Part shown: piece after piece, positions 3,069 to 14,024 of the stretch
Layout: the number at the start of each line of letters is the position of its first letter
Numbering within the stretch: the stretch's first letter is position 1
Source: Thiobacillus sp.
GTDB taxonomy: Bacteria; Pseudomonadota; Gammaproteobacteria; Burkholderiales; Thiobacillaceae
Direction: 5' to 3'
Length of the DNA: 14,393 bases
NCBI GenBank assembly: GCA_011391285.1
Contig: JAABQU010000252.1
Coordinates: 1-14,393 of the forward strand
The notes under the pieces: generated by a model
Database searches by the model: none
Told to the model about the DNA's origin: nothing
Seen by the model: the letters and a program-made list of their open reading frames with translations, nothing else
Position numbers and translations under genes: made by a program

Positions 3069-4332
3069 CGTTAGCAAGTCGGGCTGCATCGCGTACGATC
3101 TGGCCATCAGCGCTGCGCACGATGCTGTAGCCGCGCTGCAGGGTGGCAGAGGGAGAGAGGGCTGCCAGCGCGCTACCGCAGCGAGTCAGGCGGTCGCGTT
3201 GCGTGGCTGTCAATTGATGTGTTGCCTGGCGCAGGCGATAGCTCAATTGATCGAGATGCTGGCGTGCCGGCTGTAGTGTCGGGCGGGCGCGGGAAAGGCG
3301 TAGTTCCAGATCGGCCAGGCGGGTGTGACGGGTGTTCAGCGCGTGTTGTGTTGCCGTTTGCAGGCGGCGGGAAATGAGTTCGATACGCTGGCGGCTGGCG
3401 GCGAGTCGCTGGGCGGGGTGAATCAGGCGTAGGGCGAGGCGGTCGACGGCCTGCATGCGCATCTCGATAGCCTGTCTCAGGGTACGGTGAAGCGTGCGGG
3501 TCAAGTCAGCGACTTCGGCGGCAGCCTCGAACCAGCCAGCGCTGGCCAGTTCGGCGGCGGCGGTGGGGGTGGCGGCACGCTGGTCGGCGACATAGTCGGC
3601 GATGGTCGTATCGGTCTCGTGGCCGACTCCTGAAATAGTCGGCGCTGGCGAGACGGCAACAGCACGGGCTACGGCCTCGTCGTTGAAGGCCCAGAGGTCT
3701 TCGATGCTGCCGCCGCCACGCACGATCAGCAGCAGGTCGCATTCGGCGCGGGCAGTTGCTGTTTTCAGTGCGGCGACGATGGCGGCCGGGGCCTCCGCGC
3801 CTTGCACGAGGGTCGGATAGATCACCAGTTCGACATGGGGTGCGCGGCGTGCAAAGGCGGCAATGACATCGCGCAGGGCGGCGGCCTGGGGCGAGGTGAT
3901 GATGCCGATGCGATGCGGGAAGCGGGGAATTTCACGCTTTCTTTCCGCATCGAATAGACCTTCAGCGGCGAGCTTTTCACGCAGGCGCACGAACAACTCA
4001 TACAGGCGACCAACGCCGGCGCGGCGCATGCCCTCGACATTCAGCTGAAAATCGCCACGCGCCTCGTAAAGTGTTACGAGAACATTGGCTTCGACCTGCT
4101 GGCCGTTGTCGATTTTCCAGGGCAGCACCTGGGCGCGCGAGCGGAACATCACGCAACGCACCTGCGACTGGGCATCTTTCAAGGAGAAATAAATGTGCCC
4201 AGATGCGGCGCGCGTCAGGTTGGAAACTTCCCCGCTCACCCACAGCAAAGGAAAGCGCTGTTCCAGCAACAGGCGCGCCTGGCGGTTGAGCTCGCTTACT
4301 GTGAGAATGTTGGAGAGAATTTCGGTGGTCAA
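2992..4332 (-). CDS. xseA: Exodeoxyribonuclease VII large subunit
   Basis: Catalytic subunit of exonuclease VII, which degrades single-stranded DNA from both ends together with several copies of XseB. The 446-residue product is of normal length. An N-terminal OB-fold (about residues 10-105) contains WVSGEVSNLTRAASGHIYFSLKD. The catalytic core carries RGGGSIEDLWAFNDE (205-219) and GVGHETD (235-241, catalytic Asp241), followed by RAATPTAAAELAS. A long Arg/Gln/Leu-rich coiled-coil region (about 270-390) precedes a C-terminal LQRGYSIV segment. The start is TTG: an in-frame TAA lies only a few codons upstream and no ATG fits the N-terminus. No Shine-Dalgarno sequence is visible. Residues 228-234 (SPAPTIS), just before GVGHETD, are encoded by one copy of the dispersed 21-base repeat. 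The 3' end has a diverged second copy near sodB. Confidence 0.95.
   Translation of the reverse strand: MTTEILSNILTVSELNRQARLLLEQRFPLLWVSGEVSNLTRAASGHIYFSLKDAQSQVRCVMFRSRAQVLPWKIDNGQQVEANVLVTLYEARGDFQLNVEGMRRAGVGRLYELFVRLREKLAAEGLFDAERKREIPRFPHRIGIITSPQAAALRDVIAAFARRAPHVELVIYPTLVQGAEAPAAIVAALKTATARAECDLLLIVRGGGSIEDLWAFNDEAVARAVAVSPAPTISGVGHETDTTIADYVADQRAATPTAAAELASAGWFEAAAEVADLTRTLHRTLRQAIEMRMQAVDRLALRLIHPAQRLAASRQRIELISRRLQTATQHALNTRHTRLADLELRLSRARPTLQPARQHLDQLSYRLRQATHQLTATQRDRLTRCGSALAALSPSATLQRGYSIVRSADGQIVRDAARLANGECLNLRFAQGEATAVVEKTQPNSL
3637..3657 (+). repeat. Dispersed 21-base repeat, copy 1 (in xseA)
   Basis: A followed by GTCGGCGCTGGCGAGACGGC, preceded by AAAT. It matches the five-copy consensus fully. 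It is antisense to xseA and reads SPAPTI in the protein. With the upstream GCCGACT at 3622-3628 it can form a 7-bp stem. Confidence 0.85.
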
Positions 4333-4495
4333 AAGTGCTGGAAATTACGGGGAAAGGGGCGCGCCGATGGTACCTCATCCACAAGCCGGGGTATCCGTAC
4401 GCGAAATGAAAAAATTCTGCAAAATTCACCTGCGGAGCCTGATGAGTACGTGCAACTTATTGAAATATAATGATTTGATGATTGGTCACTTTTGA

Positions 4496-4535
4496 CGCTA
4501 AGTAAGAAAAGTCCTTTGCTGATGCCCACTTAGCG
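4496..4535. promoter_or_regulatory. 8-base inverted repeat with 24-base spacer
   Basis: Perfect arms CGCTAAGT (4496-4503) and ACTTAGCG (4528-4535). The left arm overlaps the possible -35 TTGACG. It could be an operator with two half sites or a looped site; no regulator is implied by the sequence. Confidence 0.35.
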
Positions 4536-12352: not shown

Positions 12353-13014
12353 ACGCACTGGCGGCATTCCCCGGTGTGGGCATGACCTCAGAGCGCACGC
12401 GCACGCGCATGATCGAGCGTCTGCGCGAGCAGGGCATCCGTAACGAGCAGGTGCTCGCGGCGATGGCAGCCGTGCCGCGCCATATTTTTGTCGCCGAGGC
12501 GATGGCCCACCGTGCCTACGAGGACACGGCCTTGCCCTTGATTCTCGGTCAGACCATCTCGCAGCCCTACATCGTGGCGCGCATGATCGAGCTGTTGCTC
12601 GACGGCCGCGAGAAACTCGGCAAGACGCTCGAAATTGGTGCCGGTTGTGGCTACCAGACGGCGGTGTTGGCGCAACTGGCGCACGATGTGTTCGGCGTCG
12701 AACGGCTCGCGCCGCTGCTGGCGCGGGCGCGCGAGCATCTTAAACAACTCAGGCTGACGCGCATCCGGCTCAAGCACGCCGACGGCATGGGCGGCCTGCC
12801 CGAAGCGGCGCCGTTCGACAGTATCATTGTCGCGGCCGCCGGTGTCAGCGTACCGCAATCCCTGCGCGACCAACTCGCCATGGGTGGGCGGCTGATCATT
12901 CCGGTCGGCGGAGGAGAACAGGCTTTGGTGATGATCGAAAAAACCCCGCAGGGCTGGGCCGAAAATCGTTTCGACGCGGTGCGCTTTGTGCCGCTGTTGC
13001 CGGGAGTGGCATGA
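12349..13014 (+). CDS. pcm: Protein-L-isoaspartate O-methyltransferase
   Basis: Methylates isoaspartyl residues in aged proteins using S-adenosylmethionine, starting their repair. The 221-residue product carries the family block ALPLILGQTISQPYIVARM (shown in part), the SAM-binding motif I LEIGAGCGYQTAVLA (family form usually LEIGTGSGYQT; here Ala and Cys replace Thr and Ser), VFGVERLAPL, and the end RFVPLLPGVA. The start at 12349 overlaps the surE stop in ATGA; a second ATG at 12382 (MTSERTRTRM) is closer to the usual N-terminal length and may be the true start. The end overlaps nlpD. Pcm protects stationary-phase proteins, matching its position beside surE and rpoS. Confidence 0.95.
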   Translation: MNALAAFPGVGMTSERTRTRMIERLREQGIRNEQVLAAMAAVPRHIFVAEAMAHRAYEDTALPLILGQTISQPYIVARMIELLLDGREKLGKTLEIGAGCGYQTAVLAQLAHDVFGVERLAPLLARAREHLKQLRLTRIRLKHADGMGGLPEAAPFDSIIVAAAGVSVPQSLRDQLAMGGRLIIPVGGGEQALVMIEKTPQGWAENRFDAVRFVPLLPGVA

Positions 13015-14024
13015 TGTGGCACAACTTGATTGCCCCCTTGATCGCCTTGGTACTGCTGAGCCTGGCCGGTTGCGCCAGCAACGTGCCCGCGCCGGTGGCC
13101 GATGGCCGCAGCCCCACGCGCATCGAAGGCGCCGTGCCCGGCAAGCCGGCCGCACCAGCCGGCAAGATGTACACCGTCAAGCGGGGCGATACCCTCTACA
13201 GCATCGCGCGCGAACAGGGCGTCGACACGCGCGACCTGTCGGCGTGGAACAACCTCGACAGCAACAAACGCATCACCATCGGCCAGCAGTTGCTGGTCAG
13301 CGTACCGGGGCGCGTCGATACTTTATCCGCGCCGGCTGCTGAAGGCACCGTTGTGCAGCCGATCGCCATCGGCGGCCCCGTGGTTGCCCGCTCGCTCGAC
13401 AGTGCGCCTGACGCCGCCGTCCCGCCAGCGCCGACTTTACCTCCCGCTGCTCCTGCCAATAGCGACAGGCTCAAGCGTTCCCCGAAAGGCGGCAAGCTGC
13501 CGTATTCCGAGGAAAACCTCGCGCTGTTGAAGGCGCAGGCCGCAGCTCAGTCTCCGGTTGCCCAGACTGCTGCGGCCGCCCCGGCTGAAAAATTACCCGC
13601 CGAGAAAGTTGCCCCAGTGGTTGTCGCGCCGCCGCCGGCGGGCAATACCGACTGGGCCTGGCCGGCAACCGGCAAGCTCCTTGCAGGTTTCAGCGAGGGC
13701 GCCGACAGCAATCAGGAGTTGAGCAAGGGCATCGATATTGCCGGAAAAATTGGAGATCCCGTACAGGCTGCTGCGGCGGGCAAGGTGATTTACGTCGGCG
13801 TATTCCCCAAGCATGGCAACCTGGTCGTGGTCTTGCACAGTGGTGGCTACAGCTCCGTGTATGCCCACAATAGCCGCATCCTCGTCAAGGATGGACAGGC
13901 GGTGACGGCTGGCCAGAAGATCGCCGAACTCGGTAATTCCGATGCCGACCAGCCGAAGCTGCATTTCGAAGTGCGGCAGCAGGGCAAGCCGGTCGATCCT
14001 CTCAAGTTTCTGCCAAAGCGCTGA
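13011..14024 (+). CDS. nlpD: NlpD-type lipoprotein, LysM plus degenerate LytM domain
   Basis: Envelope lipoprotein that activates cell-wall amidases for daughter-cell separation. The 337-residue product has a signal peptide with lipobox LAGC (lipid Cys21), a LysM domain at about 53-96 (YTVKRGDTLYSIAREQ to IGQQLLV), a Pro/Ala-rich linker, and a LytM/M23 domain at about 214-333. In that domain two zinc ligands of active peptidases are replaced: SKGIDIAG has Lys239 for His, and PKLHFE has Lys316 for the first His of HxH. This fits a non-catalytic amidase activator, as in enterobacterial NlpD. ATGATG gives two starts (13011, 13014); GGGAG at 13002-13006 favours the second by spacing. Copy 5 of the dispersed repeat encodes PPAPTL (138-143) in the linker. 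The rpoS ATG overlaps its stop; an rpoS promoter inside nlpD, as in E. coli, is possible but not identified. Confidence 0.94.
   Translation: MMWHNLIAPLIALVLLSLAGCASNVPAPVADGRSPTRIEGAVPGKPAAPAGKMYTVKRGDTLYSIAREQGVDTRDLSAWNNLDSNKRITIGQQLLVSVPGRVDTLSAPAAEGTVVQPIAIGGPVVARSLDSAPDAAVPPAPTLPPAAPANSDRLKRSPKGGKLPYSEENLALLKAQAAAQSPVAQTAAAAPAEKLPAEKVAPVVVAPPPAGNTDWAWPATGKLLAGFSEGADSNQELSKGIDIAGKIGDPVQAAAAGKVIYVGVFPKHGNLVVVLHSGGYSSVYAHNSRILVKDGQAVTAGQKIAELGNSDADQPKLHFEVRQQGKPVDPLKFLPKR
13416..13436 (-). repeat. Dispersed 21-base repeat, copy 5 (in nlpD)
   Basis: On the minus strand AA precedes A and GTCGGCGCTGGCGGGACGGC: an exact consensus match. It is antisense to nlpD and read as VPPAPTL in the linker. 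Confidence 0.88.

Follow-up and report, generated by a model that had tools for sequence, protein, structure and literature searches.

Why does one word of bacterial DNA recur five times, on both strands and always within genes, in a single stretch of 14,393 nucleotides from Thiobacillus sp. (contig JAABQU010000252.1; hereafter, the window)? Following this repeat from the window into several hundred genomes, we consider it probable, at odds of roughly two to one, that the word is a DNA-uptake sequence of a Rhodocyclales clade (Sulfuritalea, Sulfurisoma, and relatives), analogous to the DNA uptake sequences (DUS) of Neisseriaceae and the uptake signal sequences (USS) of Pasteurellaceae. Its copy number, its phylogeny-following dialects, its even spacing, its strand neutrality, its coding sites, and its origin by substitution are together what would be expected of an uptake sequence.

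The 20-mer core of the repeat, GTCGGCGCTGGCGRGACGGC, matches the window exactly five times at three or fewer mismatches, with three copies exact and two carrying one mismatch. A sequence-only reading of the window had placed five 21-base copies here, three full and two off by one; all five were recovered at those positions, the 21-mers being the core with one extra 5' base. It had also judged their density to be beyond chance, which is borne out by an expectation of 0.01 core matches for the window and by 200 dinucleotide shuffles, none of which reached five. Measured against the full 25-bp unit, the copy at 9596-9620 has no mismatch and the other four have one each. No copy is intergenic, as that reading had noted, and each of the five falls within an open reading frame (ORF):

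3634..3658 (core 3638-3657), plus strand: motif copy 1, no core mismatch, within xseA (a minus-strand gene)
6985..7009 (core 6989-7008), plus strand: motif copy 2, one core mismatch, in the envZ-like sensor kinase gene (minus strand), in an indel-prone linker
7364..7388 (core 7365-7384), minus strand: motif copy 3, one core mismatch, in the envZ-like gene on the same strand, in the HAMP-end segment
9596..9620 (core 9600-9619), plus strand: motif copy 4, no core mismatch, within tsaB on the same strand
13415..13439 (core 13416-13435), minus strand: motif copy 5, no core mismatch, in nlpD (a plus-strand gene), in the LysM-M23 linker
2992..4332, minus strand: xseA, exonuclease VII large subunit (Pfam PF02601)
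6614..7960, minus strand: envZ-like histidine kinase (RisS_PPD, HAMP, HisKA, and HATPase_c domains)
9159..9881, plus strand: tsaB (TsaD-family domain)
13011..14024, plus strand: nlpD-like gene (LysM at residues 54-96, Peptidase_M23 at residues 238-330)

Between xseA and the envZ-like gene, positions 4575-6617 encode a protein in which Sel1 repeats match eleven times.

The repeat unit is the 25-bp motif RAAAGTCGGCGCTGGCGRGACGGCR, spanning positions -4 to +20 of a profile built from 242 hits (from matched public genomes and the first whole-genome loci), with little signal beyond. Since these hits were selected by the core, conservation within the core is overstated; this bias does not extend to the A-rich start, to the last R, or to the edges. 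The motif is GC-rich, not palindromic, and continuous to both edges. It also emerged when gapped 6-mer pairs were ranked without guidance (∼100 kb per genome), with AAAGTC-12-ACGGCG coming first in genomes G007 and G417 (the G417 stretches having been chosen close to motif-like matches) and third in G599, behind shifted pairs of the same motif. The pair fell outside the best 14 in G525, G424, G486, G197, and G470 (∼100 kb each), as well as in G430, where homopolymer runs dominate. This search also returned other repeats: G599 and G470 both have the palindrome TTCCCGC....GCGGGAA, and words resembling GTAGGTTGGGCTGAG turned up in G424 and, again, in G470.

The exact 20-mer occurs in at least 120 stretches of public genomes, and 95 of the 120 listed are titled Rhodocyclaceae, Rhodocyclales, Sulfuritalea, or Sulfurisoma. 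All of the first ten genomes tried contained 291-793 copies (≤3 mismatches) on both strands, compared with 1-14 for the reversed pattern. At the level of the order, a 23-mer was counted in 399 genomes, of which three exceeded 100 copies and 343 had none. Within the family, 297 genomes were sampled: 36 were motif-rich, with 238-794 copies (≤3 mismatches of 23; reversed-pattern control, 0-2), five had 15-73, and the others had 0-12, with 148 of the 297 having none. The forecast, made from the window alone, of hundreds of copies per genome is therefore true of related genomes. The isolate Sulfurisoma sediminicola BSN1 has 238 copies, Sulfuritalea sp. UWPOB_SULF1 has 594, and a metagenome-assembled genome (MAG) named Sulfuritalea hydrogenivorans sk43H has 117; three Thiobacillus genomes and one each of Azonexus, Tepidicella, and Casimicrobiaceae have 2-26. 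Of the 297, the genome scoring best against window positions 6614-9881 was G579 (75% over 2.5 kb), the genome of L051, titled Rhodocyclaceae bacterium isolate ppb04.

Thirteen further genomes contain only 2-12 canonical copies but 65-243 copies of a dialect, as counted by a pattern in which only the two ends and some middle positions are fixed. The dialect 2 word, AAAGTCAGYCCCnnCRRnACGGCG (42 copies with exact ends), was drawn from 200 kb of G417 and G599 (in G417, stretches near motif-like matches) together with pilin and comEC loci; counts of 11-mers in 100 kb had missed this dialect, which gapped pairs recovered. Exact AAAGTC-12-ACGGCG words number 190-441 in nine of the 13 (controls, 0-2) and 6-24 in the remaining four, which probably have a different 3' end. 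Further, the base 3' of ACGGC is an A in 8/8 and 5/5 exact-end copies of two canonical genomes, which fits their low counts of this word. A third dialect, AAAGTCGACGCTGGnGnnACGGC, is present in 72 copies in one genome, G446. The dialects keep both ends (AAAGTC and ACGGC), while the middle varies.

Seventy genomes were placed in a ComEC tree with a midpoint root, where all 50 rows bearing the motif, a dialect, or an intermediate fall within one 51-row clade (support 99/95), comprising the 36 motif-rich genomes, 12 with dialect 2, one with the third dialect, one intermediate, and the motif-free G470. The labels need 5 changes on this tree, compared with 29.4 when shuffled (four for the rich label alone and two for dialect 2, which occupies two separate places). 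This pattern fits a putative single origin of the motif, followed by dialect shifts and losses. The losses may be more numerous than the tree displays, given that the motif-poor G486, G197, G528, and G581, with 70-71% DNA resemblance to the window, lie outside its sample. Three MAGs titled Gammaproteobacteria (L001), Burkholderiaceae (L069), and Propionivibrio dicarboxylicus (L035), with 505, 526, and 794 copies, are G447, G670, and G415 and sit inside the motif clade of this tree; of these titles, at least the first two appear mistaken. Separately, five exact or near-exact copies lie in one 42-kb stretch of the copy-poor G481 (contig C1, 1461-1502 kb), and some such copies also occur in the copy-poor G525 C1, G424 C1, G093, L013, and L055, where the motif may mark DNA derived from the motif clade.

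We investigated the arrangement of the copies along chromosomes, for which the sequence-only reading had proposed checks of spacing, strand bias, and coding share. The 316-kb contig C1 of G007 carries 65 copies (≤4 mismatches), 30 on the plus and 35 on the minus strand. Of these, 55 are in ORFs identified by a simple ORF caller, and 10 are outside, on a contig that is ∼7% non-coding; the ORF copies are found in each of the six combinations of frame and strand (15, 13, 12, 7, 4, and 4). Their spacing is more even than random, with a coefficient of variation (CV) of 0.69 against 0.98 (p = 0.0018). The same was observed for the 42 copies listed on G415 C1 (CV 0.67 against 0.96, p = 0.004), a list that is possibly incomplete and for which the contig end was set at the last copy. 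The single-contig chromosome of G468 has 37 exact copies spread along it, 21 plus and 16 minus, with a spacing CV of 0.89 and a best two-arc polarity split of 73% (p = 0.11). Strong strand polarity is lacking in both G007 C1 and G468, and weak polarity is still compatible with these copies.

These features bear on an unlikely alternative, namely that selection keeps the motif because a regulatory or chromosome-organising protein (a nucleoid-associated, segregation, or cell-division factor) binds it. Hundreds of evenly spaced sites would suit such a protein, the two shared ends, beginning 18 bp from each other, would suit a dimeric or bipartite binder, and the dialects could track a changing DNA-binding protein. 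FtsK-orienting polar sequences (KOPS), Chi, and matS are likewise short words spread over the genome and read by a DNA-binding protein, but these are 8-13 bp long and oriented or regional, whereas the motif has 25 bp and is near strand-neutral. Against this alternative, (i) strong KOPS- or Chi-like polarity is absent, (ii) copies occur all along the single-contig chromosome and not in one region, (iii) contigs of mobile elements carry copies too, and (iv) so long a word at hundreds of coding sites, with its cost to proteins, is unusual for proteins of this kind. The chromosome-organisation motif suggested from the window is weakened by the missing polarity and retained as a rival.

Viral or integrative-element contigs (L191, L126, L204, L182, and L136 among them) also bear the motif. 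The set comprises 91 stretches with 159 copies (≤4 mismatches), or ∼1 per 12 kb besides the selecting copy. L191 also encodes a methyltransferase, an integrase, and a ParB-like gene, and L136 has five exact copies, of which the first four are spaced at 316-bp steps. A plasmid search with a 33-base piece returned five short matches, in unrelated genera. Copies in viral and integrative-element contigs are what an escape tag would give, and a self-marker for defence or recombination (a modification site, a Chi-like site, or a restriction or defence self tag) would account for them; the motif middle, GCTGGCGG, is one base off the Escherichia coli Chi sequence, GCTGGTGG. However, the middle is precisely what the dialects change, and the orientation of the copies is near neutral, whereas Chi-like sites are short and strongly oriented and known modification sites are far shorter. 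We regard a self-marker as improbable.

How the copies arise was examined by comparison of orthologues. At the envZ site 7364-7388, 27 of 30 orthologues align without a gap, and in the other three (G006, G008, and G674) a ∼44-residue segment containing the site is absent. The 27 form a graded series, with seven having 0-3 mismatches to the motif, five having 4-5, and fifteen having 7-11 (for example, GAAATCGGCCGCGG in motif-free relatives and AAAGTCGGCGCTGG in bearers), which indicates that copies originate by substitution. The tsaB site shows the same pattern among six orthologues, two of which have the motif, G579 (no mismatch) and G602 (two mismatches). At the second envZ site, 6985-7009, several relatives have the motif at the equivalent place, in gap-rich alignments that are little informative. 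Moreover, in all six comparisons of three window sites with G579 and G602, motif identity (84-96%) exceeded that of the 60-bp flanks (54-76%). For DUS, an origin through recombination, and not through point mutation alone, is argued in the excerpted text of PMC2397512; the envZ series shows between-species substitutions, which suit either route.

The copies in 396 kb fall into mismatch classes of 0:12, 1:26, 2:25, 3:15, 4:8, and 5:3, with none below 5 in a reversed control, and look like a mutation-maintenance balance rather than a recent burst. In an all-against-all comparison of 29 sites with a motif-free homologue, the closest homologue was ungapped at 18. These data speak against repeated insertion of a dispersed mobile mini-element, another candidate of the sequence-only reading. 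Such an element might leave nearly exact, sharp-edged copies on either strand, as seen for the motif, and the 8-residue gap present at two of the 29 sites; it is contradicted by the ungapped orthologues, by the loss of a far larger segment in the three remaining envZ genes, and by the graded mismatches, and appears largely refuted already, its probability being very small. Repetitive extragenic palindromic (REP) and mini-transposon repeats are similarly short and dispersed, but they are mostly intergenic, palindromic, or inserted, whereas the motif is mostly genic, non-palindromic, and substitution-formed at the sites examined. Finally, the motif is GC-rich and mostly in coding DNA, as a chance or compositional artefact of such DNA would be, but this source is refuted, to the point of a negligible residual probability, by the 0.01 matches expected in the window and by a reversed control of 0-2 against hundreds per genome.

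Turning to the uptake sequence that we favor, we surveyed competence machinery, a check likewise proposed from the window, in 80 genomes (36 rich, 15 dialect or intermediate, and 29 free). ComEC (PF03772) is present in 79, including 36/36 rich and 14/15 dialect or intermediate genomes, and absent in one dialect genome. The ComP_DUS pilin family (PF16732) was found in 74 (33/36, 13/15, and 28/29, respectively), and at 53 of the 60 loci taken around PF16732 hits, a leader-peptide pattern picked out at least two pilin-like ORFs. From the motif, its copy numbers, dialects, phylogenetic confinement, spacing, and substitution origin, and from the presence of comEC, all of which are observed, we infer competence, a bias in uptake, a receptor, and drive. 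A surface receptor of the type IV pilus or competence system would bind the 25-bp word during natural transformation, so that own-kind DNA is favored; ComEC would bring in the bound DNA, and homologous recombination would propagate the word-bearing alleles. Repeated rounds would raise copies wherever the sequence tolerates them, giving hundreds of even, orientation-neutral, mostly coding copies formed by substitution. A shift in receptor preference would produce a new dialect, with the ends AAAGTC and ACGGC kept and the middle altered. A DNA uptake sequence was among the candidates of the sequence-only reading and is the best supported of them by numbers, dialects, spacing, strands, coding sites, and substitution, with uptake itself being the inferred part.

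Several observations weigh against an uptake sequence. ComEC is also present in 29/29 motif-free genomes and in the motif-free in-clade G470, so the machinery does not set bearers apart. A tree of 80 ComP_DUS pilin proteins intermixes rich, dialect, and free genomes, with the canonical G674 and the dialect-2 G472 as sisters (a deep nine-row group is probably a neighboring pilin caught by coordinates, and two loci yielded no protein). Since this tree does not track dialect, the ComP_DUS pilin is a poor candidate for the motif reader, although competence genes are present in bearers. At 11 of the 29 sites the closest motif-free homologue is gapped, by 8 residues in two; such gaps are more frequent than in control windows (5% gapped), and this excess fits placement in variable protein regions. 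No close inverted pairs, as at DUS and USS terminators, were seen, the nearest pair among the 65 copies of G007 C1 being 702 bp apart. Nor was the core-genome enrichment known from Neisseria seen, as the trend in a thin sample was the opposite: 1.54 copies per 10 kb (13 copies) in ORFs with a close homologue and 1.21 (8 copies) in those with a weak one, versus 2.37 (53 copies) in those without a homologue. The continuous 25-bp word exceeds DUS length. No literature on the motif, on competence, or on uptake words in these bacteria was found among the titles listed by a search that covered few subscription papers and preprints; in the excerpted text of PMC10257627, the single mention of Rhodocyclaceae concerns their enrichment under kanamycin.

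PF16732 profile scores are mostly lower in motif-rich than in free genomes, and a distinct pilin clade of motif-rich genomes, considered on that basis, was undone by the mixing in the 80-protein tree. Sister pilins also occur in genomes that are distant in the ComEC tree (G674/G472 and G649/G465, in the L352-L405 pilin clusters), and this minor pilin seems to have been transferred between lineages.

By its sequence, the motif is neither a DUS nor a USS. With DUS it shares many copies genome-wide in both orientations, subclade-confined dialects, and a type IV pilus plus ComEC machinery. According to excerpts of PMC3630211 and PMC12616744, however, DUS have up to ∼13 nt and conserve CTG at +6 to +8 plus A at +10 across dialects, whereas the motif has 25 bp, with AAAGTC and ACGGC as its shared ends, and does not follow the CTG rule. 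The kinship with the Neisseria core GCCGTCTGAA that had been raised from the window is rejected on these conserved positions, as the shared part here would be GCCGT. The motif further differs in its 238-794 copies, compared with about 940-5900 for DUS (excerpt of PMC3630211), and in that neither close inverted pairs nor ComP specificity was seen; inverted pairs at terminators are frequent, but not obligatory, in DUS and USS (excerpt of PMC12616744). USS, as excerpted sources describe them, resemble the motif in their hundreds to thousands of copies, a footprint of up to 32 nt, clade variants, and an A-rich start. They comprise a 9-nt core, AAGTGCGGT or ACAAGCGGT, followed downstream by AT-rich regions of lower conservation (excerpt of PMC12616744), whereas the motif is a GC-rich word that is unbroken from edge to edge, with little signal beyond -4 to +20.

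We advance only tentatively, as a claim somewhat more apt to fail than to hold, the fuller proposal that self-specific uptake arose independently a third time, in Betaproteobacteria of a large environmental clade, with the longest continuous uptake word known, a reader other than ComP or ComN, and two fixed ends around a changing middle. To our knowledge, self-recognition uptake tags are so far known in two other bacterial families only. A third, sequence-unrelated case in free-living bacteria would, if true, separate the general features of uptake words, such as even spacing, dialects, and drive, from those tied to the mucosa. With many genomes and several dialects at hand, the receptor could be sought by co-variation. 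Further, if the word serves uptake, this part of the Rhodocyclales should be competent; the order is described as abundant in wastewater treatment (excerpt of PMC7054561). The motif would also provide a sequence tag for DNA that has left the clade.

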